Assembly (NCBI GenBank): GCA_021292105.1
Contig: CM037865.1
Span: 74,785,152 to 74,849,151 of the forward strand
Length of the DNA stretch: 64,000 nt
Source of the DNA: Anadara kagoshimensis
Taxonomy: Eukaryota; Mollusca; Bivalvia; Arcoida; Arcidae
Direction of reading: 5' to 3'
Shown piece by piece: positions 1-64,000 of this stretch. The notes below the pieces were generated by a model. That model searched no databases. It worked only from the letters and a program-made list of their open reading frames with translations, and was not told the DNA's origin. A program made the position numbers and the translations under genes. Position 1 is the stretch's first letter. Every line of letters starts with the position of its first letter.

Positions 1-133
1 TTAGAGACGCAATGACTGCTAATACAACTGAACAGACACTAGATAAAATGACATAATAATGTCTAGTGAACATTATGGTTGTTATATGCTTTGGCGATTT
101 TAACCACTCCATATCTCCATATAGACCATTTAC

Positions 134-342
134 CTGATTTGCGTATTTTGGCCAGGTAAAAGGCAATCTTCCTGCAGGGTTGGAGTTCGAACCACTGCCG
201 CTTAAAACTCGATGAATTGCTTCCCCAGCAGACTGGGCGGGAAAGAAGCATTCCATTATTGCCAAAATTTTAGAGTCATCATGAATCCAAGTTATATTTA
301 ATGGACCGGCATTGAACAGCAACAAAACGATCGGGGTGTTAC
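134..342 (-). CDS. GH3-1 exon 9
   Basis: Phase 1 in, phase 0 out; 69 whole codons. Encodes the GH3 C-terminal alpha/beta domain with motifs NAGPLNITW, CFFPAQSAGEAI and NPAGRLPFTWPKY. Acceptor is TTTTTGGCAG|GT and donor CAAATCAG|GTAAAT. Three codons longer than exon 9 of GH3-2 because of a serine/asparagine-rich insertion (SGSGSNSN) before the PAGRLP motif. Confidence 0.9.
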
Positions 343-3300: not shown

Positions 3301-3945
3301 GCTTCATAGGATTAATGTATTGTTTTATTACAAATATAAGAAAAAAATACCATACCGCTATTGAATTATATCTTCTTTTTATCGGTAGAAATCCGTCGAG
3401 GTTTTTTAGAAGTACAAAGGACTTCATTGCAGCATTAAGGGCAATACGACGATGGTAATTACTCTGGATTAAGGTGGTATCAATGTAAGAATAGGGATTC
3501 ATATTTGGTGGGTCAAACTCTCCTAGTCTCATCCTAGTGTAGAATAAAGGCTTAACGTTCTCCAGAACAACAGACTTCTTTAATTTTCCTGCTTTAATGG
3601 CATCAACTAAAACAATTTGATCGACTTTACAATCCGTTCAATTAATATACACTAGGAATATATATATTCATACCGTTTTGAATACATTCAAACAGTTAGT
3701 CTGACGATTGAGAGAATAAGTTGGCTACATTTGCAAAATCACATTCGACCATTAAAATTCTAAGTTTTTATAAGTCTTAAATGGAAGAAAGAAATATGCA
3801 ATAGGAAAACGTTTACTTGTCAAGAGCCAACACGACCAATAAAACAGGCTCCACACAAAGCAAAGAAAACAGGCAAGACCAGAAGGACAAACACATATTG
3901 CGAACAATTATAAAAAGTAAATTAATTCAATCGCATGTTTTTTGT

Positions 3946-3983
<38 letters not shown>

Positions 3984-8845: not shown

Positions 8846-8859
8846 GTTGTGCACTTCTT

Positions 8860-12746: not shown

Positions 12747-12847
12747 CTAAACTGAATTTTTAATTAATATTACTCCTTCCACAATATTAGATCCAACATT
12801 CCTCTTCTGATGTGGCTGCTGTCCTCCTACATACAGTTTTATCCTAC
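12747..12847 (-). CDS. GH3-2 exon 12 (C-terminus)
   Basis: Encodes the last FnIII strands: KLYVGGQQPHQKRNVGSN then a hydrophobic strand and a TAG stop. Acceptor TTTTTAATAG|GTAGG in phase 1, which fits the exon 11 donor 4.7 kb away. Found by phase and motif match; too short to stand out as an open frame. Confidence 0.88.
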
Positions 12848-15800
12848 CTATTAAAAATAAACATGATATATCTGAGAGTAAGTCTTACATGTATAGTATA
12901 CCTAATAATTATTGAGAATTTCTATAATGAAAAACCATTAATAGTTGGAATTTTTCATAACAATTGTATTTCCATTAACAAGGGGGGATATTTAAATTAA
13001 TAAAATACCAAATAATTTATAATGTTCCAGCCCTCAGTTTAAAACAAGAGGCCCATGGGCCTGATACGCTCACCTGATAACTAATGGCTAGCTGATAGAT
13101 TTAAAGAAAACATAAATACTAAACCCCAATGACTTTTTTCTTTACATCATGATAACCGTTGTATCATTACCTACAACATTCTAGTATACATGCCTATACA
13201 AAAAGTTAATAGTTTTCAAGATAATTAACCATTTCAGTATTGTTTCACATCCGTGACCTTGACCTTTGAACCCATGACCTTTTTCTATACATCAAAATGA
13301 TCATTGTATCGATACCTACAACATTCTAATATACTTGCCTATACAAAATGTTGATAGTTTTCGAGATAATTAACCATTTCGGTATTGTTTCGCATCTGTG
13401 ACCTTGACCTTTGAACCCATGACCTTTTTCTATACATCAAAATGACCGTTGTATCAATACCTACAACATTTTAATATACATGCCTATAAAAAATGTTTAT
13501 AGTTTTCGAGATAATTAACCATTTGGGTATTGTTTCACATCTGTGACCTTGACCTTTGAACCCATGACCTTTTTCTATACATCAAAATGATCGTTGTATC
13601 AATACCTACAACATTCTAATATACATGCCTATACAAAATGTTGATAGTTTTCGAGATAATTAACCATTTCGGTATTGTTTCGCATCTGTGACCTTGACCT
13701 TTGAACCCATGACCTTTTTCTATACAACAAAATGATCGTTGTATCAATACTACAACATTCTAATATACATGCCTATACAAAAGTTTATAGTTTTCGAGAT
13801 AATTAACCATTTCGGTATTGTTTCACATCTGTGACCTTGACCTTTGAACCCATGACCTTTTTCTATACATCAAAATGATCGTTGTATCAATACCTACAAC
13901 ATTCTAATATACATGCCTATAAAAAATGTTTATAGTTTTTGAGATAATTAAACCATTTCGGTATTGTTTCGCATCTGTGACCTTGACCTTTGAACCCATG
14001 ACCTTTTTCTATACATCAAAATGATCGTTGTATCAATACCTACAACATTCTAATATACATGCCTATACAAAATGTTTATAGTTTTCGAGATAATTAACCA
14101 TTTCGGTATTGTTCGCATCTGTGACCTTGACCTTTGAACCCATGACCTTTTTCTATACATCAAAATGATCGTTGTATCAATACCTACAACATTCTAATAT
14201 ACATGCCTACACAAAATGTTTATAGTTTTCGAGATAATTAACCATTTGGGTATTGTTTCGCATCTGTGACCTTGACCTTTGAACCCATGACCTTTTTCTA
14301 TACAACAAAATGATCGTTGTATCAATACCTACAACATTGTAATATACATACCTATACAAAAAGTTTATAGTTTTCGAGATAATTAACCATTTGGGTATTG
14401 TTTCGCATCTGTGACCTTGACCTTTGAACCCATGACCTTTTTCTATACATCAAAATGATCGTTGTATCAATACCTACAACATTCTAATATACATGCCTAT
14501 ACAAAATGTTTATAGTTTTCGAGATAATTAACCATTTGGGTATTGTTTCGCATCTGTGACCTTGACCTTTGAACACATGACCTTTTTCTATACATCAAAA
14601 TGATCGTTGTATCAATACCTACAAGATTCTTATATACATGCCTATACAAAAAGTTTATAGTTTTCGAGATAATAATTATAATGAGAGGTAAAAAAAAATA
14701 GGTCACGACCTTCACAATTGACCTTGACCTCATTTTGAAGATACTAACAAGAAGATGTCAAAACTGAAAACCCATGTCATTATCTGGTCAAATAGTCAAG
14801 TTATAACAATTTGAAGCTATTTTACGATTTTTTCAAAATTAAACGCAAAAACGCGTAACCTATTTTTTTATCAGAATTTCACAAAATGAACAAACTATAG
14901 GCTTAAGACCCTAGAGAAGCCAAATATCACATCAGTTTTTTCTCCAATCAGTACTTTCGGAGAAGAAGATTTTTTAAGATTTTTGCACCCCTAGGTCACC
15001 TTGACCTAGTTATGGTAGCCATGGCAACGCCACGAACAAATTGAATTGCACCGGCCCATATATACTTCTGACAAAGTTTCATTAAAAACTGTCCAGTAGT
15101 TTCAGAGGAGAAGTCGAAAATAGGTGTTAACGACGCACACACGCACACACGCACACACGCACACACGCACATACACACGCTGCGCTATGCCATAAGCTCA
15201 CATGACCTTCGGTCAGGTGAGCTAAAAAGGGGCCTCAATCTAACAGATGTCAATGTCTTAAAAAAAGCCTAGGGTCCAAGTGCCATGTCATGTGTACAGT
15301 CCCAAAATTATACACTCTACCGTTTTCTGTAACGTTTTATGGATCAAATTGGCTCTTTTATTAACTAGAAAGTCTTAGAAAATTGTAATCAGGTTTAGAT
15401 TTGGACTTAGACTTAATTGGCCCCAAATACCCCATTTTGGGCCTCAACCCCCTAAAATAAATGTTGTACATCGCATTTGAGTCATCATCCTTCTAAAAAA
15501 TCTAGCAATCCGGGCTTTTTACACACAAATGAACTCTACATCTTTATTTCATCGAGTTTCAATATTTCTAGCTCCAGTTTAAACTTTAGTATTTCAGACA
15601 AACTTTGCGTTTTCAATAGTAACATTATCAAAAAGTAAAGTACCATCATAAAGGCAGATACTTCAGTCTATTTATTATTATGTCTACTGCCTAGTTACAA
15701 ATTTGTATCATTTTCTTTTCATTTTGTGTATTGTTGCTTGTTTTGTTCTGTTCATTTGTTATTCTGTTCATTTTGATGTTATTCTGTCCATTTTGTTTTG

Positions 15801-17428
15801 GTGTATTCCAGATTGATCCGACTATTGCCAGATCCATTCCATTCAGCTGGAATTCACCATATTTAACTTTAAGATTAAATTTGGTACCAGTTAAGATAGT
15901 TTTAATGTAGCTTCAATATGTTAGGTTTATGGAACGCATAAGTAAAATTAACAAGAGGCCCATGGGCCTTATACGCTCACCTGATAACTAATGGCTAGCT
16001 GATAGATTTAAAGAAAACATAAATACTAAACCCCAATGAATTTTTTCTTTACATCAAAATGATCATTGCATCAATACCTACAACATTCTAATATACATGC
16101 CTATACAAAACTTTTATAGTTTTCAAGATAATTAACCATTTCAGTATTGTTTTCGCATCTGTGACCTTGACCTTTGAACCCATGACCTTTTTCTATACGT
16201 CAAAATGATCATTGTATCAATACCTACAACATTCTAATATACATGCCTATACAAAAAGTTTATAGTTTTCGAGATAATTAACCATTTCGGTATTGATTCG
16301 CATCTGTGACCTTGACCTTTGAACCCATGACCTTTTTCTATACACCAAAATGATTGTTGTATCAATACCTACAACATTCTAATATACATGCCTATACAAA
16401 AAGTTTATAGTTTTCGAGATAATTAACCATTTCGGTATTGTCTCGCATCTGTGACCTTGACCTTTGAACCCATGACCTTTTTCTATACATCAAAATGATC
16501 GTTGTATCATACCTACAACATTCTAATATACATGCCTATACAAAAAGTTTATAGTTTTCGAGATAATTAAACATTTCCGTATTGTTTCGCATCTGTGACC
16601 TTGACCTTTGAACCCATGACCTCTTTCTGTACATCAAATGATCGTTGTATCAATACCTACAGCATTCTAATATACATGCCTATACAAAAGTTTATAGTTT
16701 TCGAGATAATTAAACATTTCCGTATTGTTTCGCATCTGTGACCTTGACCTTTGAACCCATGACCTTTTTCTATATATCAAATGATCGTTGTATCAATACC
16801 TACAACATTCTAATATAAATGCCTATACAAAAGTTTATAGTTTTCGAGATAAGTAACCATTTTGGTATTGTTTTACATCTGTGACCTTGACCTTTGAACC
16901 CATGACCTTTTTCTATACACCAAAATGATTGTTGTATCAATACCTACAACATTCTAATATACATGCCTATACAAAAGTTTATAGTTTTCGAGATAATAAT
17001 TATAATCAGAGGTAAAAAAATTAGGTCACGACCTTCACAATTGACCTTGACCTCAATTTGAAGATACTAACAAGAAGATGTCAAAACTGAAAACCCCATG
17101 TCATTATCTGGCCAAATAGTCAAGTTATAACAATTTGAAGCTATTTTACAATTTTTTCAAAATTAAACGCAAAAACGCGTAACCTATTTTTTGTCCGAAT
17201 TTCACAAAATGAACAAACTATAGGCTAAAGACCCTAGAGAAGCCAAATATCACATCAGATTTTTTCTCTAATCAATACTTTCGGAGAAGAAGATTTTTAA
17301 GATTTTTGCACCCCTAGGTCACCTTGACCTAGTTATGGTAGCCATGGCAACACCACGAACAAATTTGAATTGCACCGACCAAGACATGAATCTGACCAAG
17401 TCTCGTTGAAATCTGCCCAGTGGTTCGT

Positions 17429-17464
<36 letters not shown>

Positions 17465-17491
17465 AACGACGACGACGACGAGACAACGGAC

Positions 17492-17523
<32 letters not shown>

Positions 17524-20500
17524 TGGCTCAGGTGAGCTAAAAACAATAATAATAATAATAATAAAGGTATAAAAAGTCTCTCTTACCGGGTTCAATTATA
17601 AATCCATGTTGATCTGACCACACAGCCATACTATCAGGTTCTATTGTAAAATTATATGATTTTTCTTCCTGATCTTCTAGTGTTACTCTGTTAAAACCAA
17701 CAAGTTGTAGGTTTGGCATTTTCTCTTTGTGTCTAGCCATGACAAATATATCTGAATCACCTGAAATTATTTTTTCAAAAACATATACTATATATAATAG
17801 TTAACATAATACTAAAAAATGGTAATGAAAGTATTGGAGAAACTAAATGCATGTCTCTTCACAGGATAGCATTCAATGAAACTAAAACTGTCTCTTGACA
17901 GCTAAGTACAAATACCCCTGCCATAAAAATGACCTTGTGACCCTGACCTTTGACCTAACACACAGTCTAAAACACTGGTCTACAAATCACAGTCCCTCTT
18001 ACTGGTTCCAGTTCCATTCAGTATACAACAGTATGTCAGCTGTCAGTTCTGACAGAAAATTGGTGGTTTTCTTAGAGTTCCCTCTACTATATCAAAACTG
18101 TCTGTTTTAACTTAACATAAAACATCATTTCATCCACCCCACTACCATGAACCTTGGTATGACCAATAAATGTTCAAACTCTTTTTATGCATAAATAAAT
18201 ATTAAGTATACTTATCTCATCACCAGTATAAGGTCCGTATTGTCACTATGTATTATACAAACCTCATCACCAGTAAGGTCCTGTATTTGTCACATTATTA
18301 TACAAACCTTATCACAGTATAGGTCCTGTATTTGTCACTATGTATTATACAAACCTCATCACCAGTATTAGGTCCTGTATTTGTCACTATGTATTATACA
18401 AACCTCATCACCAGTATAAGGTCCTGTATTTGTCACTATGTATTATACAAACCTCATCACCATATAAGGTCCTGTATTTGTCACTATGTATTATACAAAC
18501 CTCATCACCAGTATAAGGTCCTGTATTTGTCACTATGTATTATACAACCTCATCACCAGTATAGGTCCTGTATTTGTCACTATGTATTATACAAACCTCA
18601 TCACCAGTATAAGGTCCTGTATTTGTCACTATGTATTATACAAACCTCATCACCATATAGGGTCCTGTATTTGTCACTTGTATTATACAAACCTCATCAC
18701 CAATATAAGGTCCTGTATTTGTCACTATGTATTATACAAACCTCATCACCATATAAGGTCCTGTATTTGTCACTATGTATTATACAAACCTCATCACCAG
18801 TATAAGGTCCTGTATTTGTCACTATGTATTATACAAACCTTATCACCAGATTAGGTCCTGTATTTGTCACTATGTATTATACAAACCTATCACCAGTATA
18901 AGGTCCTGTATTTGTCACTATGTATTATACAAACCTCATCACCAGTATAAGGTCCTGTATTTGTCACTATGTATTATACAAACCTCATCACCAGTATAAG
19001 GTCCGTATTTGTCACTATGTATTATACAAACCTCATCACCATATAAGGTCCTGTATTTGTCACTATGTATTATACAAACCTCATCGCCAGTATAGGGTCC
19101 TGTATTTGTCACTATGTATTATACAAACCTCATCACCAGTATAAGGTCCTGTATTTGTCACTATGTATTATACAAACCTCATCACCAGTATAGGGTCCTG
19201 TATTTGTCACTATGTATTATACAAACCTCATCACCAATATAAGGTGTATTTGTCACTATGTATTATACAAACTCATCACCAGTATAAGGTCCTGTATTTG
19301 TCACTATGTATTATACAAACCTCATCAGTATTTGTCACTATGTATTATACACAACCTCATCACCAGTATAAGGTCCTGTATTTGTCACTATGTATTATAC
19401 AACCTCATCACCAGTATAAGGTCCTGTATTTGTCACTATGTATTATACAAACCTCATCACCAGTATAAGGTCCTGTATTTGTCACTATGTATTATACAAA
19501 CTCATCACCAGTATAAGGTCCTGTATTTGTCACTATGCATTATACAACCTCATCACCAATAAAAGGTCCTATTTGTCACTATGTATTATACAAACCTCAT
19601 CACCAGTATTAGGTCCGTATTTGTCACTATGTATTATACAAACCCATCACCAGTATAGGTCCTGTATTGTCACTATGCATTATACAAACCTCATCACCAA
19701 TAAAGGTCCTGTATTTGTCACTATGTATTATACAAACCTCATACCAGTATTTGTCACTATGTATTATACAAACCTCATCACCAATATAAGGTCCTGTATT
19801 TGTCACTATGTATTATACAAACCTCATCACCAGTAAAGGTCCTGTATATTGTCACTATGTATTATACAAACCTCCACCAGTATAAGGTCTGTATTTGTCA
19901 CTATGTATTATACAAACCTCATCACCATATAAGGTCCTGTATTTGTCACTATGTATTATACAAACCTCATCACCAGTATAGGTCCTGTATTTGTCACTTG
20001 TATTATACAAACCTCATCACCAATATAAGGTCCTGTATTTGTCACTATGTATTATACAAACCTCATCAAGTATAAGGTCCTGTATTTGTCACTATGTATT
20101 ATACAAACCTTATCACCAGTATAGGTCCTGTATTTGTCACTATGTATATACAAACCTCATCACCAATATAAGGTCCTGTATTTGTCACTATGTATTATAC
20201 AAACCTCATCACCAGTATAAGGTCCTGTATTTGTCACTATGTATTATACAAACCTTATCACCAGTATTAGGTCCTGTATTTGTCACTATGTATTATACAA
20301 ACCTTATCACCAGTATAAGGTCCTGTATTTGTCACTATGTATTATACAAACCTCATCACCAGTATAAGGTCCTGTATTTGTCACTATGTATTATACAAAC
20401 CTCATCACCAATATAAGGTCCTGTATTTGTCACTATGTATTATACAAACCTCATCGCCAGTATAAGGTCCTGTATTTGTCACTATGTATTATACAAACCT

Positions 20501-23500
20501 CATCACCAGTATAAGGTCCTGTATTTGTCACTATGTATTATACAAACCTCATCACCAGTATTAGGGTCCTGTATTTGTCACTATGTATTATACAAACCTC
20601 ATCACCAGTATAAAGTCTTGTATTTGTTACTATGTATTATACAAACCTCATCAGTATTTGTCACTATGTATTATACGAACCTCATCACCAGTATAAGGTT
20701 CTGTATTTGTCACTATGTATTATACTAACCTCATCACCAGTATAAGGTCCTGTATTTGTCACTATGTATTATACAAACCTTATCACCAGTATTAGGTCCT
20801 GTATTTGTCACTATGTATTATACAAACCTTATCACCAGTATAAGGTCCTGTATTTGTCACTTTGTATTATACAAACCTCATCACCAGTATAAGGTCCTGT
20901 ATTTGTCACTATGTATTATACAAACCTCATCACCAGTATAAGGTCCTGTATTTGTCACTATGTATTATACAAACCTTATCACCAGTATTAGGTCCTGTAT
21001 TTGTCACTATGTATTATACAAACCTTATCACCAGTATAAGGTCCTGTATTTGTCATATATTATACAAACTTCATCACCAGTATAAGGTCTTGTATTTGTC
21101 ACTATGTATTATACAAACCTTATCACCAGTATAAGGTCCTGTATTTGTCACTATGTATTATACAAACTTCATCACCAGTATAAGGTCCTGTATTTGTCAC
21201 TATGTATTATACTAACCTCATCACCAGTATAAGGTCCTGTATTTGTCACTATGTATTATACAAACCTCATCACCAGTATTAGGGTCCTGTATTTGTCACT
21301 ATGTATTATACAAACCTCATCACCAGTATAAAGTCTTGTATTTGTTACTATGTATTATACAAACCTCATCAGTATTTGTCACTATGTATTATACAAACCT
21401 CATCACCAGTATAAGGTTCTGTATTTGTCACTATGTATTATACTAACCTCATCACCAGTATAAGGTCCTGTATTTGTCACTATGTATTATACAAACCTTA
21501 TCACCAGTATTAGGTCCTGTATTTGTCACTATGTATTATACAAACCTTATCACCAGTATAAGGTCCTGTATTTGTCACTATGTATTATACAAACCTCATC
21601 ACCAGTATAAGGTCCTGTATTTGTCACTATGTATTATACAAACCTTATCACCAGTATAAGGTCCTGTATTTGTCACTATGTATTATACAAACCTTATCAC
21701 CAGTATTAGGTCCTGTATTTGTCACTATGTATTATACAAACCTTATCACCAGTATAAGGTCCTGTATTTGTCACTATGTATTATACAAACCTCATCACCA
21801 GTATAAGGTCCTGTATTTGTCACTATGTATTATACAAACCTTATCACCAGTATAAGGTCCTGTATTTGTCACTTTGTATTATACAAACCTCATCACCAGT
21901 ATAAGGTCCTGTATTTGTCACTATGTATTATACAAACCTCATCACCAGTATAAGGTCCTGTATTTGTCACTATGTATTATACAAACCTTATCACCAGTAT
22001 TAGGTCCTGTATTTGTCACTATGTATTATACAAACCTTATCACCAGTATAAGGTCCTGTATTTGTCACTATATATTATACAAACTTCATCACCAGTATAA
22101 GGTCTTGTATTTGTCACTATGTATTATAGAAACCTTATCACCAGTATAAGGTCCTGTATTTGTCACTATGTATTATACAAACTTCATCACCAGTATAAGG
22201 TCCTGTATTTGTCACTATGTATTATACTAACCTCATCACCAGTATAAGGTCCTGTATTTGTCACTGTTACTGTTAATGATATAGACTCCCCTGCCTTTAT
22301 GGTTTGTGGAAATGTTATAGGCTTGTAGAGAAATTTACTAAATGATAATCCATAACCAAATGGATAGAGAGGGTCACCAGTAAAATATCTGTAGGTTCTA
22401 CCATCCATTGTGTATGATGTCATTGAAGGCATCTACAACATAAAATATATAAAGTCACTACTGAGTAACATGTAAATGACAATAGATAGAACAATCAAGA
22501 ACAGGCTACAACAAACACACAAACCCAGACACAAGAACTAAATCCTGTGTTCCTACTTTCACTTCTCAACAAAACAGAGAACTAAAACCTGTGTTCCTAC
22601 TTTCACTTCTCAACAAAACAGGGTATGAATTGAAGATTGTTTTGTTTTTAATTTTTATTTTTCATTTTTATATTTTTACATTAGCTAAATATATTCATGA
22701 CTTTAACAGTTCACATGAAAGCCATTGTTTTTTGTATTATAAACAGTACCACTCCCAATAAGAAGAAGTTTTCTGAATCACATACTAACAAGACTCATAC
22801 TGGATACAAACCTGTGTCACCTGGCCATGTCCACACATGAAAATACAAGAGTACACATCACTGGTGTGTGTGAAATGTATGGGTAAGATTGTATTTAGTT
22901 TATGAGTTTACATAATCTATCATCTAATATACACCTAATACATATGAATAGTGTTTCAGATGGAGAGATGGATTGATTAATGGAGTCAAGCATTTACTAG
23001 GCCTGTTTTTACTTTTTACTTCTGGGTCGAACCAATGTGCTCTCTACCAGACATATACCGGTATGTATGCATCTCAAACTATCATTACCTGTTGTTTAAA
23101 ACTTAACCTAAAATTAATGGTTAGACATTTCAAGTAACATACATGTATAACATGTTAAGCTGGCTTGCAAATCTAGTTATCCAAACAAAACAACTTTAAC
23201 CTAAGTTTCACACCTGTCCATGAAAAAATCAGAGACCAACTGAGACTCAAGTTAAGAATAGGACTTTTTTAACATTTGTACTTCAAACAATGAGCTAACT
23301 ATCTGAATACACACCTGATCTGAATATTTTAACCATGTGTATGGGAGTCTGCCTGCTACTAAGTAAGGCTGTGCAATAATCTGTGTAATAGCATCCCCAG
23401 TTGACTGAGCAGGGAAGAAGCACTGGAAAATGGCAATGATGAATTTACTCTGATCAGCCCAGGTAATATTGACTGGACCAGCTGTAAACAGGAACAAAAT

Positions 23501-26500
23501 CACTGGCCTGTTACCTGTAATTAGTACAAACTGAAATAATAACTGTATAGTAACCATGACAACAAGTAAACAGGAACAAAATCACTGGTCTGTTACCTGT
23601 AATTAGTACAAACTGAAATAATAACTGTATAGTAACCATGACAACAAGTAAACAGGAACAAAATCACTGGCCTGTTACTTGTAATTAGTACAAACTGAAA
23701 TAATAACTGTATAGTAACCATGACAACAAGTAAACAGGTACAAAATCACTGGCCTGTTACTTGTAATTAGTACAAACTGAAATAATAACTGTATAGTAAC
23801 CATGACAAGTAAACAGGAACAAAATCACTGGCCTGTTACCTGTAATTAATAAGTACAAACTGAAATAATGCCTGTATTGTAACTATGACAACAAGTAAAC
23901 AGGAACAAAATCACTGGTCTGTTACCTGTAATTAGTACAAACTGAAATAATAACTGTATAGTAACCATGATAAAAGTATACAGGAACAAAATCACTGTTA
24001 CCTGTAATTAGTACAAACTGAAATAATAACTGTATAGTAACCATGACAACAAGTAAACAGGAACAAAATCACTGGTCTGTTACCTGTAATTAGTACAAAC
24101 TGAAATAATAACTGTATAGTAACCATGACAACAAGTAAACAGGAACAAAATCACTGGCCTGTAACCTGTAATTAGTACAAACTGAAATAATAACTGTATA
24201 GTAACCATGACAACAAGTAAACAGGAACAAAATCACTGGCCTGTTACCTGTAATTAGTACAAACTGAAATAATAACTGTATAGTAACCATGACAACAAGT
24301 AAACAGGAACAAAATCACTGGTCTGTTACCTGTAATTAGTACAAACTGAAATAATAACTGTATAGTAACCATGACAACAAGTAAACAGGAACAAAATCAC
24401 TGGTCTGTTACCTGTAATTAGTACAAACTGAAATAATAACTGTATAGTAACCATGACAACAAGTAAACAGGAACAAAATCACTGGTCTGTTACCTGTAAT
24501 TAGTACAAACTGAAATAAAACTGTATAGTAACCATGACAACAAGTAAACAGGAACAAAATCACTGGTCTGTTACCTGTAATTAGTACAAACTGAATAATA
24601 ACTGTATAGTAACCATGACAACAAGTAAACAGGAACAAAATCACTGGTCTGTTACCTGTAATTAGTACAAACTGAAATAATAACTGTATAGTAACCATGA
24701 CAACAAGTAAACAGGTACAAAATCACTGGTCTGTTACCTGTAATTAATAAGTACAAACTGAAATAATGCCTGTATTGTAACCATGACAACAAGTAAACAG
24801 GAACAAAATCACTGGTCTGTTACCTGTAATTAATAAGTACAAACTGAGGTTACTTGTCTAATGCCTTTATAGTAACCATGACAACTACATGTAGTATATT
24901 CAACTTAAAGTTTGAAAGACTGAGGCCAAAGAAAGGTCCTGTAGTTTTGTTTATTTTTATGAAATTTTGACAAATGCTCAGAGAAGCTGTTTTATTTGAA
25001 AGCTAACTTGTATGGTTTTATTATATGATAACATTGTCTTTCACATTCATACCTCAATATATTCATACCTAAATATAGAAAACAATTAGAAGACCTACCA
25101 TATAGTACAGTATCCTTCAATAAATTAAGCTGCTCTCCTGGTAATTCCATATCTTTTCTATCATTTCCTTCAGATTCCATTAATTTTCCTGAAATAAATG
25201 AAAAACTAGGGTAATGTTTGTAAAACAAATGCCCCAGCCCTTGCATATCATATAAATCAGGATTTCATTGAAGCAAACTTGAGTTATTGTATGAAAATCA
25301 TATTCTATTAATAGTAACAGTTTCCTTCACCTTTGACCGCCAAATTCAATAAATTTCTTCATTTCAAAGTTTTGAAAATTATATAATTTAAAATTCTGTT
25401 AATTCAAACCAAGTTATTTGCAGGAAAACCCCTAAATCTATCTGTAGTAACAAGGACCTTTACCTTTGACTTATGACCTTCAAAAACGATAGGTTTTTCT
25501 CTTAAAAAATATCTATCAGTTGATAAATTCTGAGAGTCTTTACACAGAAAACCTTAAATCAAATTATTGTAACAGTGACCTTGACCTTTGGTTTCCCAAA
25601 CCAACAGAGATTTTCCTTTAAAGAACATCTATTGCTATCAGTGTATTAAGTTTGATGAAATCCCATCGAACCAAACTTTGTCAGATTGAAGTACGTACCT
25701 GTCCCAAGAAAAACAAAAATAAATCCACTTGTTCCATCAATGACACTTTTTACACTATTTTTATCATATTTCTGGCACTTATTGCCATCCATACATCCTG
25801 CAGTGTATGATATATTATGATGAGGATACATCTTCTTTATTCCTTGTAAGGGAGTCTTTATAAACCGAGGTTCTGCATCTGGTGAGTAATCCCCTAATAA
25901 CTGCTCAGTGTTGTTAGCCATTGGACCTATAACCTGTAAAATAAACAGGAATATCTGTGAATAATCTCCCAATAACTGCTCAGTGTTGTTAGCCATTGGA
26001 CCTATAACCTGTAAAATAAACAGGAATATCTGTGAATAATCTCCCAATAACTGCTCAGTGTTGTTAGCCATTGAACCTATAACCTGTAAAATAAACAGGA
26101 ATATCTGTGAATAATCCTCTAATAACTGCTTAGTGTTGTTAGCCATTGGACCTATAACCTGTAAAATAAACAGCAACATCTGGTGAATAATCCCCTAATA
26201 ACTGCTCAGTGTTGTTAGCCATTGGACCTATAATCTGTAAAATAAACAGGAATATCTGTGAGTAATCTCCCAATAACTGTTCAGTGTTGTTAGCCATTGG
26301 ACCTATAACCTGTAAAATAAACAGGAATATCTGTGAGTAATCTCCCAATAACTGTTCAGTGTTGTTAGCCATTGGACCTATAACCTGTAAAATAAACAGG
26401 AATATCTGTGAGTAATCTCCCAATAACTGTTCAGTGTTGTTAGCCATTGGACCTATAACCTGTAAAATAAACAGGAATATCTGTGAGTAATCTCCCAATA

Positions 26501-29500
26501 ACTGTTCAGTGTTGTTAGCCATTGGACCTATAACCTGTAAAATAAACAGGAATATCTGTGAGTAATCTCCCAATAACTGTTCAGTGTTGTTAGCCATTGG
26601 ACCTATAACCTGTAAAATAAACAGGAATATCTGTGAGTAATCTCCCAATAACTGTTCAGTGTTGTTAGCCATTGGACCTATAACCTGTAAAATAAACAGG
26701 AATATCTGTGAGTAATCTCCCAATAACTGTTCAGTGTTGTTAGCCATTGGACCTATAACCTGTAAAATAAACAGGAATATCTGTGAGTAATCTCCCAATA
26801 ACTGTTCAGTGTTGTTAGCCATTGGACCTATAACCTGTAAAATAAACAAGAAGTCACTGTGTTACTAAAAGTCAACCACTCATCTTGTATACAGAACAAA
26901 ATGCATTAATAAATTAAAGAGCATGTTTAAACGTCCATAGAATACCTAAAGACTAAATTTCAGTTTACTTGCCAAAGGTCAGTTTAAACGTCCATAGAAT
27001 ACCTAAAGACTAAATTTCAGTTTATTTGCCAAAGGTCAGTTTACTTGCCAAAGGTCAGTTTCTCTTAAGTTTTCTCTTAGTACTCTGATTTCCTACATCT
27101 TCTTTTAGAAGAGACGGCCTCAATCTTGACTGGGCCATAAAACACCATTACTCCAGTCCACTCCAATCACTATATTATCACTTCACACATGTAAAACTAA
27201 CATTCTACAGTTAAAGTGACAATTGTTATACAAACAACAAAATAAAATGAACACTTACTGCTATATTTTTGCTGACTTTCAATGGTAAACTAAATAATGG
27301 TTCTGACTTCAACAAAACAAATGATTTAACTGCAGCTTCTACAGACAATTTTCTATGGGCTTCACTCTCTATTTCTGTCATGTTATACTTGGTATATGGA
27401 ACCATCTCTGGAGGGTCAAATTCTCCTAGCCTCATTCTGGTATAAAACAGTGGCTTAACTCTGCTACGAATGGTTTCTTCTGTCAATTTTTTAGCATTAA
27501 TGGCTTGAGCTGAGGAAAAAAGAAAAACAATATTATTTGATTGAGAAATCAACATCTACCTGTGATATATCATTGAATAATACACAGGCTGGTGTTCACA
27601 TACGACAGGGTACCGGTATATTACAAGGGACCTAGGACCAATGGAATAGGACCTATAACCATGATGTTATTATGTTTTGTGTTTCATATGAAGAAAAAAA
27701 GCAGATTGTTAGAATTAATAATAAATCAAAAAGTTAAATTTTAATATTATTGAGTTTCTTAGCTTACAAATGTGAATTTATTTTATTTGCATCCATAATC
27801 AAATCTAAATCTTAAGCAGAAATTAAACAACATTTCAAACATGGCAGTGACTGCTTAACAGTAGCATAAATGCCAGTTTCACATTCAGAGGTGGATATAG
27901 AGGCAGACATAGAGGACATGGTGTATGTACCCTTTTATGTTGCTGATTAACATTTTTGTGTTTTTATGATTCTGTTGCTCTGAATGAAAGTTTTTCTCTT
28001 TAATGCAGCTAAGATTTCACCAGAATGTAAAATTTGTGCTGCCATTTTTTCAAATTTTCCCAGGAGAATATGGCCCAAAACATACTAAAAATTCAAGCCT
28101 TTGGCTCTCCAACTTTTATGTCCTTAGCTAAAATCCTACAACTGCCACAAACATCACATCCTACACTCTAAATGGAACCCCAATGTAACTAAATAACTAA
28201 CTAATATGAAAATATGACATGTATTCCTTTGTTGTTAGATTCTAATACATATATGTGGACTATAATAATAACCTTACTCATGTATAAATAATATGGTGTG
28301 GAGATGTTCCCCGACAGTTCCAGGTTACACCCAGCATTGACACATGTGGCCACCACATCTACTGGATCCGTGAAGTATTTATGTTTTGTTAGACTGAATT
28401 CAATAGCACCCTCATCACTAACAACATATCCAGTAAAATTCCATTCTTTTCTCAATACTTCTGTCAATAATCTGGAATTGGCACAAGCTGGAATTCCATT
28501 TATACTGAAAGTAATAGATAAATTCACATAGATCACAATAAAAATTTATAATATGAATCTTATTGTTTTGATATTTTATTCTGTTATTTCTTCTACTTAA
28601 ATTTATCACTACATACATGTATATATACATATACCGGTAAAAAGTACAAAGTTTAGAAGATACAGGCAGTAACTTGGAATATAAATAATTGAAGCTTTAT
28701 GTATCCAATGTAACTGTTTCCAGGATTAAAAACTTGTTTTATCTGTGTACCACTTTACAGTCAGTTGGTTGTGACTTTCTGGGCACTCCAATTTTCTCCA
28801 CCATCCAAGACCTGACAAACTCTGTGTATATGGAAGAATCTTGACTGGGAAATAAACCACCATTACTCCACTCCTTTTGTAAATCAGTATGATATTTACC
28901 TGTTATAACTACACATAACACTGTATGTTCCTGCTTTACCTGTTATAACTACACATAACACTGTATGTTCCTGCTTTACCTGTTATAACTACACATAACA
29001 CTGTATGTTCCTGCTTTACCTGTTATAACTACACATAACACTGTATGTTCCTGCTTTACCTGTTATAACTACACATAACACTGTATGTTCCTGCTTTACC
29101 TGTTATAACTACACATAACACTGTATGTTCCTGCTTTACCTGTTATAACTACACATAACACTGTATGTTCCTGCTTTACCTGTTATAACTACACATAACA
29201 CTGTATGTTCCTGCTTTACCTGTTATAACTACACATAACACTGTATGTTCCTACTTTACCTGTTATAACTACACATAACACTGTATGTTCCTGCTTTACC
29301 TGTTATAACTACACATAACACTGTATGTTCCTGCTTTACCTGTTATAACTACACATAACACTGTATGTTCCTGCTTTACCTGTTATAACTACACATAACA
29401 CTGTATGTTCCTGCTTTACCTGTTATAACTACACATAACACTGTATGTTCCTGCTTTACCTGTTATAACTACACATAACACTGTATGTTCCTGCTTTACC

Positions 29501-32500
29501 TGTTATAACTACACATAACACTGTATGTTCCTGCTTTACCTGTTATAACTACACATAACACTGTATGTTCCTGCTTTACCTGTTATAACTACACATAACA
29601 CTGTATGTTCCTGCTTTACCTGTTATAACTACACATAACACTGTATGTTCCTGCTTTACCTGTTATAACTACACATAACACTGTATGTTCCTGCTTTACC
29701 TGTTATAACTACACATAACACTGTATGTTCCTGCTTTACCTGTTATAACTACACATAACACTGTATGTTCCTGCTTTACCTGTTATAACTACACATAACA
29801 CTGTATGTTCCTGCTTTTATACATTTTCTAAAAGCTGGTAAAAATGTCAGCCTCCAGTCTCTCTCAGAAACCTGATAATATTTTAAACATAAGATCACCA
29901 TTAAATCATTTTACAAGTATTAAATGGACCTCTTGTAAGTTAAGTGGATAAAGTGTTCACTCTATACATCTGTACATGGAATGTTGTTATTGGAAGATAC
30001 AAATTCAGTCCCTAGAAAAGTCATATTCAAGACTGGAAATGGAGTACTGATAGTGTTTAAACTATAATAATATCAGGTTTTATTGATACTACTATCATTT
30101 TACTAGATGTGAATAACTGTTAACAATAATTCATTCATTCTTTCATTCATTCATTCGTTCATTTATTCGTTCATTCATTTATCCACTCATTCATTCGACA
30201 CACGAATGTCATTAACTTACAGTAAATATCAAAGATAACTGAAAGTCATAACTTTATAACAGTGAAGTGACCAGTGCTGAAAAAACTTTAAACCCAGGAT
30301 GGGCATTGAACCTGCGACCTTCTGCTCCGGAGTCAGATGCTCTACCACTGAGCTACGCAGGCTTACAGCTCTATGGAGTGTAAATTATACTACAATAGTA
30401 CCAACAGGTATTCATTGTCATTAACAATTCATTTTTTTATGGTTCAAACATCCAAAAACATCAAGTTAACCACAGTTTAAAGTACAAAGCATGTGGATTT
30501 ATCAACATTTCACTGTAAAGCAATACAGAGGATCAAATATTCAAACTCTATTTGTATCTGACTTGTAAAGCACTTAAGGTACTCACCTTTGCATCAAAAC
30601 TAAGTCTGCTGACAGGTATATTTTCTGGTCCACCATGGACATCAAAATGTTTACACCCTGCATTAGCTCTGATATATCTTGGGTTATCTCCTTGTAATCC
30701 TTTTACGAAATGTTCAGCATATACACCACTCAAGAAAGGATCTTCACCATATGTTTCCTGAAACATGACAAGATTATTAACTGTACTTGTCATTTATTTG
30801 TTAATTAATACATGTATATACATCATTTATTATCTAAACACATGATTCTATAATTAGTTTTATAAAACCAACATTTTTCTAACAAAAATAAAGCAGATCT
30901 TCATTATTTGCAATAAAAAAATCAATCTAAATTTCCCAAAATAAGAAACATCCCATTTAATTCAAAATAAAAGTCTGCAAAACAACAGTGTCTGGAGCAA
31001 ATATGAGAACCCATGTTTCAATGAGTATAAGAAATTAAAGCTGTTTGACTACAGTGTACTCAAGATCACAAAAACTGGTGAATACACATACCTACATACC
31101 TACATGTATGTGTACATGTCACATTGTGTATGCGTACTTCCCACTTCTGTTTTTCTCTATGTTGGTAGGTATGTATACATGTCACATTGTGTATGCGTAC
31201 TTCCCACTTCTATTTTTCTCTATGTTGGTAGGTATGTGTACATGTCACATTGTGTATGCGTACTTCCTACTTCTATTTTTCTCTATGTTGGTAGGTATGT
31301 GTACATGTCACATTGTGTATGCGTACTTCCCACTTCTATTTTTCTCTATGTTGCATTTTATTCCTGCACATGTCTTCCTCTTTTACTTTAGGTATGTTTC
31401 CAATCACGCTCTGAACAGATCCCAATGTGAGAATGTGTGTCAGCTCTGGTTCTTCATCATTCTAGCACTGTCTATCTCTATATAGGTAATATGTTAATTC
31501 TCTAAAATGACATGGTGTCGTTGATCTCTTGTTTTTCCAAATGACCCCGATGTTAAGGCCTTAGTGTATCATATTTGATGTTACATGAATGCAAAAATAT
31601 TGATGTTATGATGTTTTAGAGGAAAATAAATGACCCTCAAACCCCCATCCTCTAAAAAATACTAGATTAAACACCAAGTGACAGAATCTTGACTGAGGCA
31701 TGGTGGTAAATGCTATTACTCCACTCCTTCTTCTTTAGTATATGTACATGTGATTACCTGATTTCTTCCCCATAATGGATGCCTCATAATGTTTATAACA
31801 GGACTATGATTACCTGATTTCTTCCCCATAATGGATGCCTCATGTTTATAACAGGACTATGATTACCTGATTTCTTCCCCATAATGGATGCCTCATAATG
31901 TTTATAACAGGACTATGATTACCTGATTTCTTCCCCATAATGGATGCCTCATAATGTTTATAACAGGACTATGATTACCTGATTTCTTCCCCATAATGGA
32001 TGTCTCATAATGTTTATAACAGGACTATGATTACCTGATTTCTTCCCCATAATGGATGCCTCATAATGTTTATAACCGGACTAAAACAGCTCAGGCCGGT
32101 GTGGTCACTGTATATTTTCTTGTGTACAAAATCACTATGTTTGGCTCGTAGTTCAATAGATGTTGCTTCAGCTATTCTATATATTAAATCTGGGCTGAAA
32201 TATAATTACATTTTATAAAATGTTCTTAAAAGAAACATTGGAAACCAATATCACAGTACAAGTACAGTAAAACCTTGTTATAAAGCCCCTCAATAATTAT
32301 ACCAACTCGTGTACCAATATCACAGTACAAGTACAGTAAAACCTTGTTATAAAGCCCCTCAATAATTATACCAACTCGTGTACCAATATCACAGTACAAG
32401 TACAGTAAAACCTTGTTATAAAGCCCCTCAATAATTATACCAACTCGTGTACCAATATCACAGTACAAGTACAGTAAAACCTTGTTATAAAGCCCTTCAA

Positions 32501-33553
32501 TAATTATACCAACTCGTGTACCAATATCACAGTACAAGTACAGTAAAACCTTGTTATAAAGCCCTTCAATAATTATACCAACTTGTGTACCAATATCACA
32601 GTACAAGTACAGTAAAACCTTGTTATAAAGCCCTTCAATAATTATACCAACTCGTGTACCAATATCACAGTACAAGTACAGTAAAACCTTGTTATAAAGC
32701 CCTTCAATAATTATACCAACTTGTGTACCAATATCACAGTACAAGTACAGTAAAACCTTGTTATAAAGCCCCTCAATAATTATACCAACTCGTGTACCAA
32801 TATCACAGTACAAGTACAGTAAAACCTTGTTATAAAGCCCTTCAATAATTATACCAACTCGTGTACCAATATCACAGTACAAGTACAGTAAAACCTTGTT
32901 ATAAAGCCCTTCAATAATTATACCAACTCGTGTACTGCCACTAATATACTGAAGTTCAATAATCCATTTCTTTTATGTTTTCTTTATTAATTGCCAAACC
33001 CCTTTATAATCCAAAAATCTGACTGAACAAAACGTGACAATGAATTGAGGCTTTATACTGTCTATGTAAGAACAGCTTAGAGTTTCATAACATGTGTGGT
33101 GTGCTACGCTATGGCACTTGAGTGTAAAATTATGATAGACATTCAAATTATAGTAATGATAAGAATCTTAAGTACCATAATATCTAGTTAGCTAGGACCA
33201 AATATTGAGAAAATTTACCTGGCATACAAATTAAATTACCTAAATGAAGCAGCAAGACCAATTGCTTGAGGAAATGATGTAGCATTTCCCGCCTCAACAT
33301 CACCACGTAAACACTCGCTATTCCACTGGTATTTATCTATACCAAGTCTGCCAATATCAGGAGCTGGTCCACCCAGTATTCCAGCACCACCATAAGCCAT
33401 CTGTTCCATTATCTCCTCAACTGTTAACCGCTTAACTAAATCATCTACTCTTAGTTGCCATGGTAATGATGTGTTTCTAAATGGATAATCTACTGCAATG
33501 TACAGTGGTACGATTGATGATAAAAGGTAAAGAGCAGTGATTAAATACTTCAT
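12747..33553 (-). CDS. GH3-2: secreted glycoside hydrolase family 3, beta-xylosidase-like (complete, 12 exons)
   Basis: Exons 33553-33240, 32194-32035, 30757-30587, 29871-29780, 28504-28278, 27509-27259, 25933-25699, 25188-25099, 23514-23315, 22432-22228, 17760-17587 and 12847-12747 join in frame to 740 codons including the stop (739 residues, normal for a GH3 xylosidase). Order: signal peptide 1-20, TIM barrel, alpha/beta sandwich, fibronectin III-like domain (about 600-739). Key residues: K194/H195 (CKHF), nucleophile D276 (VVSDEGAIE), acid/base region ESEGNDR at 488-494. The start ATG has a perfect Kozak context (GCCACCATGA), with a candidate 5'-UTR acceptor 28 bases upstream. Five of its splice junctions have grown into minisatellites. 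The enzyme class is firm; xylosidase rather than glucosidase specificity is inferred. Confidence 0.93.
13043..15228 (+). mobile_element. Bivalve-type interspersed element, copy A, with about ten 145-bp tandem units
   Basis: Begins ACAAGAGGCCCATGGGCCTG and ends TCAGGTGAGCTAAAAA; the GCTCACCTGA near the left end is inverted near the right end. The core is a tandem array of about 145-bp units, each with CTGTGACCTTGACCTTTGAA and CATGACCTTTTTCTATACA. The right part carries a single-copy tail ending in an (ACACGC)n microsatellite at 15135-15180. No protein frame is visible, so it is non-autonomous. The class is unclear. Confidence 0.8.
15135..15180. repeat. (ACACGC)n-type microsatellite
   Basis: Short alternating CA/CG run near the 3' end of element copy A; absent from copy B, which has a (GACGAC)n-like run at the same place (17458-17485). 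Confidence 0.85.
15950..17541 (+). mobile_element. Bivalve-type interspersed element, copy B, with about seven 145-bp tandem units
   Basis: Same ends and tail as copy A and the same orientation. It has fewer core units, and the individual units differ by small indels (for example the shortened 'caaatgatcg' forms). Ends 45 bp from the GH3-2 exon 11 donor. Confidence 0.8.
17587..17760 (-). CDS. GH3-2 exon 11
   Basis: FnIII-like segment: DSDIFVMARHKEKMPNLQLV then GFNRVTLEDQEE, the GH3 'LxGFxRV' motif. Phase 1 at both ends. Donor GAACCCG|GTAAGA. Joins exon 10 only if the exon 10 donor is (T/A)|GTATA, which fixes how that repeat-embedded junction is read. Confidence 0.93.
17761..18214. other. GH3-2 intron 10, unique part
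   Basis: AT-rich, with one short 'gaccttgtgaccctgacctt' stretch near 17930 related to the dispersed GACCTTGACCTTT family. No exon is seen here, and none is needed because exons 10 and 11 already join in phase. Confidence 0.6.
18215..22260 (-). repeat. 49-bp minisatellite, about 82 copies, seeded by GH3-2 exon 10 donor
   Basis: The minus-strand unit reads GGACCTTATACTGGTGATGA, then G, a short segment and GTATAATACATAGTGACAAA. Its first half is the end of exon 10 (GPYTGDEV) and its second half is intron starting with a GTATA donor. Units vary by one-base indels and short internal deletions. A block of about 718 bp is duplicated within the array (around 20430-20800 and 21150-21520), shown by the shared variant 'taaagtcttgtatttgttac'. 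The long open frames on the plus strand here are artefacts of the repeat. Confidence 0.95.
22228..22432 (-). CDS. GH3-2 exon 10
   Basis: Starts MPSMTSYTMDGRTYRYFTGD, then LYPFGYGLSFSKF (the GH3 'YPFGYGLSYT' motif) and VTVTNTGPYTGDEV, the opening of the FnIII domain. Phase 0 in, phase 1 out. The boundary is placed at GTTA|GTATAA, because only this donor is in phase with exon 11; GAG|GTTAGT would shift the frame. The last 25 bases are the seed of the 49-bp array. Confidence 0.9.
22433..23314. other. GH3-2 intron 9
   Basis: AT-rich intron; a 46-bp direct duplication ('cctgtgttcctactttcac...') at about 22535-22622. Nothing else recognised. Confidence 0.65.
23315..23514 (-). CDS. GH3-2 exon 9
   Basis: NRPVILFLFTAGPVNITW, then CFFPAQSTGDAI and GRLPYTWLKYSDQ, the GH3 C-terminal-domain motifs. 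Phase 1 in, phase 0 out, with donor TCAG|GTGTGT. The first 30 bases and the acceptor recur in the adjoining array, so several upstream acceptors exist; this one is contiguous with the full exon. Confidence 0.92.
23515..24890 (-). repeat. 82-bp minisatellite, about 17 copies, seeded by GH3-2 exon 9 acceptor
   Basis: The minus-strand unit contains intronic 'actgtatagtaaccatg...', the acceptor TTACAG|GTAACAG and the first residues of exon 9 (GNRPVILFLFT) before falling back into intron sequence. Units differ at a few positions (ccagtg/ccagtga, aaaaca indels), and units near the two ends carry an extra 'aataag'. Confidence 0.93.
25099..25188 (-). CDS. GH3-2 exon 8
   Basis: KLMESEGNDRKDMELPGEQL: the GH3 'ExEGxDRxxLxLPGxQ' motif, where the acid/base glutamate is expected (E488 or E490). 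Ninety bases, phase 1 at both ends; acceptor TTTATTTCAG|GA, donor ATATG|GTAGGT. Confidence 0.93.
25189..25698. other. GH3-2 intron 7
   Basis: Holds a diverged dispersed sequence related to the 'accttgacctttg' family (about 25310-25640, two or three loose copies). No gene. Confidence 0.55.
25699..25933 (-). CDS. GH3-2 exon 7
   Basis: VIGPMANNTEQLLGDYSP opens the second GH3 domain; ends FVFLGTG. Phase 0 in, phase 1 out, donor GACAG|GTACGT. The first 50-odd bases recur in the array upstream; this copy continues into the unique remainder (DAEPRFIKTPLQG). Confidence 0.93.
25934..26860 (-). repeat. 75-bp minisatellite, about 12-13 copies, seeded by GH3-2 exon 7 acceptor
   Basis: The minus-strand unit has the acceptor TTTTACAG|GTTATAGG, the exonic VIGPMANNTEQLLGDYS, then an intronic filler (QIFLFILQ if translated). 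At 75 bp it is a multiple of three, so the minus strand is open across many units (236- and 177-codon frames). Copies toward 26850 are nearly identical; those near exon 7 are more varied. Confidence 0.95.
26861..27258. other. GH3-2 intron 6, unique part
   Basis: Contains a 58-bp direct duplication ('gtttaaacgtccatagaatacc...') at about 26927-27040 and a SINE-tail remnant ('tcttgactgggccataaaac') near 27124-27165. Confidence 0.6.
27259..27509 (-). CDS. GH3-2 exon 6
   Basis: FYTRMRLGEFDPPEM and AAVKSFVLLKSEP mark the linker between the GH3 domains. Same length and phase as GH3-1 exon 6. Acceptor TTTCCTCAG|CTC, donor ATAGCA|GTAAGT. Confidence 0.94.
27510..28277. other. GH3-2 intron 5
   Basis: AT-rich intron with no recognised repeat or gene. 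Confidence 0.6.
28278..28504 (-). CDS. GH3-2 exon 5 (catalytic nucleophile exon)
   Basis: INGIPACANSRLLTEVLRKE, then FTGYVVSDEGAIEF with nucleophile D276, then CVNAGCNLELSGN. 227 bases, phase 2 in and phase 1 out, as in the paralogue. Acceptor ACTTTCAG|TA, donor ACATGA|GTAAGG. Confidence 0.95.
28505..28899. other. GH3-2 intron 4, unique part
   Basis: AT-rich, with a SINE-tail remnant ('tcttgactgggaaataaacc') at about 28817-28875, immediately beside the 40-bp array. Confidence 0.6.
28900..29820 (-). repeat. 40-bp minisatellite, 23 copies, seeded by GH3-2 exon 4 donor
   Basis: Nearly perfect array; the minus-strand unit is GTAAAGCAGGAACATACAGT followed by GTTATGTGTAGTTATAACAG. Apart from the GT, the unit is exon sequence (AGTYSVMCSYN). 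Only one substitution was noticed (a 'ctactt' unit near 29252), so the expansion is recent or homogenised. The most intron-distal unit (28900) is followed by a different donor context, GTAAAT, likely the ancestral one. Confidence 0.96.
29780..29871 (-). CDS. GH3-2 exon 4
   Basis: SERDWRLTFLPAFRKCIKAG then TYSVMCSYN. Uses the first available donor (AACAG|GTAAAG); 22 more potential donors follow downstream in the array. 92 bases, same as the paralogue. Confidence 0.9.
30128..30196. repeat. (TTCA)n-like microsatellite
   Basis: Imperfect tetranucleotide run with TTCG and TTTA variants. Confidence 0.85.
30293..30363 (-). pseudogene. tRNA-like sequence (tRNA pseudogene or SINE head)
   Basis: The minus strand reads GCCTGCGTAGCTCAGTGGTA with an A box, an anticodon arm with loop CTCCGGA (CCG would be arginine) and a B box GGTTCAATGCC. 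The 3' side of the acceptor stem (ATCCTGGGT) does not pair with GCCTGCG and the anticodon stem has an A-G mismatch, so function is unlikely. Confidence 0.6.
30587..30757 (-). CDS. GH3-2 exon 3
   Basis: ETYGEDPFLSG then NAGCKHFDVHGGPEN with K194 and H195. Phase 0 at both ends, 57 codons as in GH3-1. Acceptor CATGTTTCAG|GAA, donor GCAAAG|GTGAGT. Confidence 0.95.
31095..31365 (+). repeat. 63-bp tandem repeat, about 4 copies
   Basis: Units start 'atgtgtacatgtcacattgt' in GH3-2 intron 2. At 63 bp it keeps reading frames open (plus-strand 95 and 146 codons), but there is no domain and no splice context, so it is judged non-coding. Confidence 0.9.
31752..32045 (-). repeat. 56-bp minisatellite, about 6 copies, seeded by GH3-2 exon 2 donor
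   Basis: The minus-strand unit encodes SPVINIMRHPLWGRNQ and then a GTAATC donor. One unit lacks 'ataa' (near 31842). The plus-strand left edge is flanked by a SINE-tail remnant ('tcttgactgaggcatgg', 31687-31735). Confidence 0.94.
32035..32194 (-). CDS. GH3-2 exon 2
   Basis: Ends GLSCFSPVINIMRHPLWGRN plus Q. 160 bases, phase 2 in, phase 0 out. Acceptor ATATTTCAG|CC. The donor AATCAG|GTAATC at 32034 is the first of several identical donors produced by the array. Confidence 0.93.
32240..32935. repeat. 69-bp minisatellite, about 10 copies, in GH3-2 intron 1
   Basis: Units 'accaatatcacagtacaagt ... ccaactcgtgt', two subtypes (cccctcaa/cccttcaa). It lies about 45 bp upstream of the exon 2 acceptor but contains no exon sequence. 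The 218-codon minus-strand frame across it is a by-product of the 69-bp period. Confidence 0.93.
33240..33553 (-). CDS. GH3-2 exon 1
   Basis: MKYLITALYLLSSIVPLYIA is the signal peptide; DYPFRNTSLPW and RVDDLVKRLTVEEIMEQM follow. The open frame runs upstream to 33682, but the ATG at 33553 is preferred: Kozak GCCACCATGA, a signal peptide starting there, and an upstream acceptor-like TTTGCTATTTCAG at 33582-33594. Donor TTTAG|GTAATT. Confidence 0.93.

Positions 33554-47414: not shown

Positions 47415-64000
<16,586 letters not shown>

Follow-up and report, generated by a model that had tools for sequence, protein, structure and literature searches.

The stretch analysed here is a 64-kb window of contig CM037865.1 of Anadara kagoshimensis, which carries two paralogous genes, GH3-1 and GH3-2, and in GH3-2 five splice junctions are spanned by minisatellite-like tandem arrays (Table 1). 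GH3-2 is a beta-xylosidase-like gene of 12 exons, modelled from the sequence with the help of its open joined frame, tblastn and homologues in the PDB. Exons 1-10 join into 647 codons with zero stops, and the best match of the protein among solved structures (PDB) is a beta-xylosidase (E 4.6e-81). Exon 11 is one base short compared with GH3-1, i.e., it has a 1-nt frameshift near the C-terminus, and for lack of this base the C-terminus would be truncated; the frameshift may be a real mutation or an assembly error. GH3-1 has its introns in the same order. Its exons 1-9 lie inside the window and exons 10-12 beyond the left window end, in the adjoining upstream DNA (L006); using this contiguous DNA, all 12 exons could be matched, some exon ends being approximate.

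Arrays were called by Tandem Repeats Finder on the window and compared with the junctions of the 12-exon GH3-2 model. As the original prediction had it, five arrays are located on splice sites, at the donor side in exons 2, 4 and 10 (units of 56, 40 and 49 bp) and at the acceptor side in exons 7 and 9 (75 and 82 bp). One copy of each array is contiguous with the exon; in donor arrays this is the first copy, in acceptor arrays the last. For instance, every unit of the 40-bp array contains AACAG/GTAAA (the slash marks the exon edge), the first copy continuing exon 4 and the others lying past the donor. No similarity was found between the units of the five arrays, which are therefore independent events, again as predicted. 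Among gap-free copies, the donor GT is unchanged throughout the three donor arrays (53, 19 and 23 copies), and the acceptor AG is unchanged in 12 exon 7 copies and lost in 2 of 10 exon 9 copies. GH3-1 has the same introns, and 0 of its 22 junctions (window and contiguous upstream DNA) falls within a tandem array, which also bears out the prediction. Since both paralogues have the introns in common, the arrays arose later than the introns. A sixth junction array covers the donor of an exon of an acetyl-CoA acetyltransferase (thiolase) gene in the same window.

Table 1. Genes and tandem arrays in the window, and junction arrays at other loci (given with a locus number).
Feature	Unit and copies	Position	Strand	Basis or remark
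GH3-2, beta-xylosidase-like, 12 exons		12747..33553	-	sequence model, open joined frame, tblastn, PDB homologues
GH3-2 exons 1-4		33553-33240, 32194-32035, 30757-30587, 29871-29780	-	
GH3-2 exons 5-8		28504-28278, 27509-27259, 25933-25699, 25188-25099	-	
GH3-2 exons 9-12		23514-23315, 22432-22232, 17760-17587, 12847-12747	-	
GH3-1 paralogue, exons 1-9		134..8870	-	exon 1 start approximate
GH3-2 exon 2 donor array	56 bp x6.0	31751..32083	-	exon-contiguous copy: donor after 32035
GH3-2 exon 4 donor array	40 bp x23.1	28895..29817	-	donor after 29780
GH3-2 exon 7 acceptor array	75 bp x13.0	25877..26852	-	last copy holds exon start 25933
GH3-2 exon 9 acceptor array	82 bp x16.5	23484..24832	-	last copy holds exon start 23514
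GH3-2 exon 10 donor array	49 bp x83.7	18216..22265	-	first copy: donor after 22232
Thiolase donor array (exon 56670-56786)	102 bp x20.8	56707..58828	+	thiolase Pfam matches among open reading frames
GH3-2 intronic array	63 bp x3.9	31106..31353	-	off junctions
GH3-2 intronic array	69 bp x10	32244..32935	-	off junctions; ends 50 bp from exon 2 acceptor
Thiolase intronic array	30 bp x4.1	55298..55420	+	starts 3 bp into intron after donor 55294; counted as non-spanning
Donor array	40 bp	L007 7645-8886		open frame and splice site
Acceptor array	58 bp	L007 9452-9740		open frame and splice site
Donor array	82 bp	L008 6334-6720		open frame and splice site
Donor array	69 bp	L009 5302-6506		homology support: EF-hand, calcyphosin-like
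Donor array	58 bp	L010 8891-9468		open frame and splice site
Donor array	55 bp	L015 3356-4346		open frame and splice site
CCT donor array	82 bp	L050		
CCT donor array	64 bp x2.0	L063		
CCT acceptor array	77 bp	L065		

Repeats off the junctions are present in the window as well. GH3-2 introns contain, besides the 63- and 69-bp arrays, two short ones (44 bp x2.0 and 57 bp x2.1). A satellite with a unit of 143-145 bp forms two arrays in the last GH3-2 intron (13129-14673 and 16042-16997), and this unit was found again in several arrays across 264 kb. The 63- and 69-bp arrays, the satellites and the exon 11 frameshift were absent from the original prediction. The 30-bp array beside a thiolase donor may be a former junction array, the exon part of which has since been lost. 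Positions 49994-51687 hold a 40-bp array of 42 copies within a non-LTR (long terminal repeat)-type reverse-transcriptase frame, the unit not being a multiple of 3.

The arrayed junctions had been presented as the oddity of a single gene. This was rejected, given the thiolase, CAGGTAAG-family and CCT cases: besides thiolase, six further junction arrays were found downstream of the window by inspection of open reading frames and splice sites, homology support being at hand for L009 only, and others at further loci, including CCT and myosin genes. Both types of site are hit, in GH3-2 three donors and two acceptors and in CCT two donors and one acceptor. Across 25 arrays, unit lengths range from 33 to 102 bp and are a multiple of 3 in only 5. 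In a coiled-coil gene, a 54-bp array (L010 5446-5639) extends across the stop codon and the following sequence. A conserved myosin-head exon carries a 97-bp x8.2 acceptor array (L066, C11:32.455 Mb). Two CCT loci on opposite strands (L080 and L081, C11:7.97 and 8.80 Mb) each have an 82-bp donor array of about four copies in the one assembly, and no similarity between their introns past the array was detected by blastn. That the arrays are assembly artefacts is highly improbable: although one comparable amphioxus array was reportedly assembled aberrantly in the genome draft (PMC3087553), copies here have their own variants, arrays with differing units are spread over many loci and several contigs, and the 82-bp array is present at both of these CCT loci, 0.83 Mb apart.

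Donor words were also counted genome-wide as tandem triples. At 33-63 bp spacing, the word CAGGTAAG gave 2147 triples vs 373 for the reversed word, and a one-base control, CAGCTAAG, gave 704. For CAGGTAAGV, 1218 triples were counted vs 165 reversed, the single words differing only as 19,018 vs 12,152; its one-base control CAGCTAAGV reached 566 triples (11,906 singles). The listed places of this control stem nearly all from one array, and the triple counts therefore say little per array. Of nine CAGGTAAG array families inspected, seven were judged exon donors, L031, L040, L041 and L045 being also called by an exon scorer and L032, L039 and L042 being judged by eye; L038 (flank not reached) and L043 were not counted as donors. 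Judging from their motifs, PCGF RING-finger-like, C-type-lectin-like and hemicentin-like exons are presumably among these families. With AAGGTAAG (1436 triples vs 675 reversed), an exon donor was found in one of five arrays inspected. A control array, L047, turned out to be a junction array itself, at the donor of an exon which, judging from its motif, is presumably ABCF-like. At C3:22.75-22.93 Mb (L044, L045), related donor arrays with CAGGTAAG occur at several neighbouring loci, and their exons look related, with the frame ...VYVRWGKTRCP...LVYSG.

To estimate how often junctions carry arrays, exons were located by Pfam profile with repeats disregarded ("array-blind"), two junctions being assumed per exon. 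The CCT/cpn60 sample consisted of the best 16 exons left once apparent second copies and three matches with a long single frame (C2:6896881 and two on C19) had been removed; the myosin sample consisted of 13 exons, apparent second copies likewise removed. Neither L066 nor the downstream junction arrays entered these counts, because they had been found through their repeats. A junction-spanning array was present at 3 of 32 CCT/cpn60 junctions (P 0.016-0.064), at 0 of 26 myosin junctions and at 1 of 14 thiolase (ACAT) junctions. Together with GH3-1, the array-blind total is 4/94 (4.3%, 95% interval 1.2-10.5%). As background, units of non-junction arrays cover 1.7-2.9% of points in 264 kb, depending on the filter, and the array-blind junctions do not differ significantly from it (P 0.07-0.29). 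Exons predicted ab initio in the array-collapsed 264 kb likewise gave no excess, with 2, 2 and 4 of 57 arrays on junctions at three thresholds vs 1.4-2.9 expected; this test is weak, since the predictor recovered only one of the six known window cases. The donor-motif strength of array units showed a weak signal (7/57 below rank 0.05, binomial P 0.023) and acceptor-motif strength none (4/57 arrays, P 0.32). Donor units with an intron part of at most 12 nt numbered 7/18 vs 4.15 expected (P 0.10).

We consider it probable, at about 0.62, that the junction arrays are minisatellites of the "mirage" type, a name used for such structures in amphioxus (see below), and that they result from tandem duplication of the ordinary kind, in a genome rich in minisatellites, combined with selective tolerance. 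A short tandem duplication would by chance take in an exon edge together with its splice site. Splicing would then use the exon-contiguous copy, while further copies would fall in the intron and leave with it. Because the extra copies would be spliced out, a duplication at a junction should be nearly neutral and free to grow, and the array may reach tens of copies via slippage or unequal exchange, the usual ways in which minisatellites expand. A duplication confined to coding sequence would in most cases disrupt the reading frame and be eliminated by selection; duplications that reach past a splice site or stop codon could survive, as their extra copies would stay out of the protein. Given a generally high birth rate of minisatellites, the junction arrays would be the visible remainder of the duplications that reach into exons.

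Several observations agree with this tolerance account. The geometry of the arrays, their independence, unit lengths untied to codon size, and their presence in several conserved genes (thiolase, EF-hand/calcyphosin-like, CCT and myosin, and, judging from motifs, PCGF-, ABCF- and lectin-like exons) are observed directly, and every junction array leaves one splice site contiguous with the remaining exon. With a unit length divisible by 3 in just 5 of 25 arrays, in-frame translation would be impossible for most copies. The array across a stop codon is what tolerance would predict, and the 40-bp array in the reverse-transcriptase frame fits too, a retrotransposon frame being free of such constraint. 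The lack of a significant surplus of arrays at array-blind junctions, compared with ordinary points, also supports tolerance, and so does the report that splicing is undisturbed by the amphioxus mirages (PMC3087553, PMC3902484).

On the other hand, a number of results weigh against it, most of them concerning GH3-2. In a chance model, each array was placed at random, as one unit, in the collapsed gene, wholly exonic placements being barred; the two dispersed-satellite arrays and arrays of fewer than 2.5 copies were omitted. In GH3-2, five of seven arrays span a junction vs 0.94 expected (P 0.0004). The earlier statement that random placement does not produce so many thus held, and as plain tolerance does not predict this excess, the cluster of five is left unexplained by it. 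Junctions are arrayed more often in GH3-2 than elsewhere (5/22 vs 4/94, P 0.012). When GH3-2, with which the question began, is added to the array-blind sample, the total becomes 9/116 (P 0.0002-0.007 vs background). Donor units tend to consist largely of exon sequence (intron share 0.37 on average, n=18 including one faulty row, L040, of irregular period; Kolmogorov-Smirnov P 0.028), which hints, but only hints, at frequent births in exons.

Some of these results would suit a birth of tandem duplications directed to transcribed splice junctions, by R-loops, spliceosome-associated breaks or donor/exon microhomology, a type of cause already put forward in the original prediction. For GH3-1, GH3-2 and thiolase together, 6 of 12 arrays are on junctions vs 1.40 expected (P 0.00095). 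With GC-matched placement (guanine plus cytosine), 1.83 are expected (P 0.004), which weakens exon GC richness as the sole cause. The CCT exons taken alone, the surplus of CAGGTAAGV triples over what single words show, and the mostly exonic donor units point in the same direction. However, the myosin junctions are free of arrays, the array-blind total is not significant, the ab initio test, weak as it is, gave no excess, and word counts are counts of copies, dominated by a few long arrays, with many triples even for CAGCTAAGV. Of the proposed splice-site-directed mechanism the excess in GH3-2 stands, while significant enrichment of arrays at splice sites is found with GH3-2 pooled in and not in the array-blind total or the weak ab initio test. 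Such a splicing-directed cause is not established, and we regard it as unlikely. A shade less likely again is the far-reaching version, in which tandem duplication in this lineage would favour transcribed exon edges, several per cent of all splice junctions in the 1.1-Gb genome would have turned into minisatellites or be on the way to it, and the junction would be a nursery multiplying exon sequence and splice signal inside introns, ready as new exons or introns.

Alternatively, GH3-2 might be decaying; arrays would then be harmless anywhere in it, and its five junction arrays would be due to selection being relaxed in this one gene. The missing base in exon 11, by which the protein would be cut short, and the high share of arrayed junctions compared with other genes speak for decay. 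Nevertheless, we find it rather improbable: the base may have been lost in assembly, the remaining exons are open and conserved, and conserved genes such as CCT also carry junction arrays. Furthermore, relaxed selection alone would not target junctions, and none of the arrays found lies entirely within a GH3-2 exon. Ordinary duplication with selective tolerance remains our preferred explanation.

A structure of the same kind was reportedly described in amphioxus some twenty years ago. Under the name of mirages, duplications resembling minisatellites are reported there at intron-exon boundaries, donor and acceptor alike, for Adh3, the globins BflGb6 and BflGb9, troponin C and PGBD5; splicing is described as undisturbed, length as unstable and the origin as unclear, and mirages are suggested to contribute to intron gain (PMC3087553, PMC3902484). 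Amphioxus units reportedly measure 10-160 bp (PMC3087553), and the units of our 25 arrays lie inside this range. The original label of an undescribed mode of repeat birth was consequently dropped, these structures being in print. Here, too, units span the exon-intron boundary and the splice site (five arrays in GH3-2, one in thiolase), donors and acceptors are both affected, and splice signals are retained in many interior copies, so that the arrays share every mirage feature that could be compared, length polymorphism aside. The present case differs in the organism (a 1.115-Gb genome), in reaching up to 84 copies and in affecting several genes, array-blind exons included. Splice-junction tandem copying is thus recurrent in several genes of this genome and of a kind already known from amphioxus, not a new mechanism. 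Whereas the mirages reported in the papers cited concern a handful of amphioxus genes (PMC3087553, PMC3902484), here several genes, housekeeping genes among them, are concerned. With an array-free paralogue next door and several genes, mutation bias vs selective tolerance would become countable, and counting in such a genome could likewise test whether mirages turn into new introns, as has been proposed. Gene models in such genomes may fail at arrayed junctions.

In a partial literature search, no report of mirages outside amphioxus was found save two human cases. In the human interferon-induced gene IFI6/G1P3, a minisatellite contains several splice donors that are used in alternative transcripts (Turri et al. 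1995, as cited in PMC4526556); the likeness lies in minisatellite units bearing splice donors, while use in alternative transcripts is reported for the human gene. In human segmental duplications, variable internal tandem repeats are located at exon-intron boundaries and unit expansion affects splicing, and 27 intron modifications in recent human paralogues with new introns are reported in that study (PMC2812944). Minisatellite units at exon-intron boundaries are again the common element, but the introns here are old and common to both paralogues. In the model of Rogers, as presented in PMC4974935, with potato RdRp as an example, an intron is gained by tandem duplication crossing an intron-exon boundary. 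The duplication across the boundary is shared with our arrays; there, however, a new intron arises inside an ancestral exon, whereas the introns of GH3-2 are all present in GH3-1, where they are without arrays.

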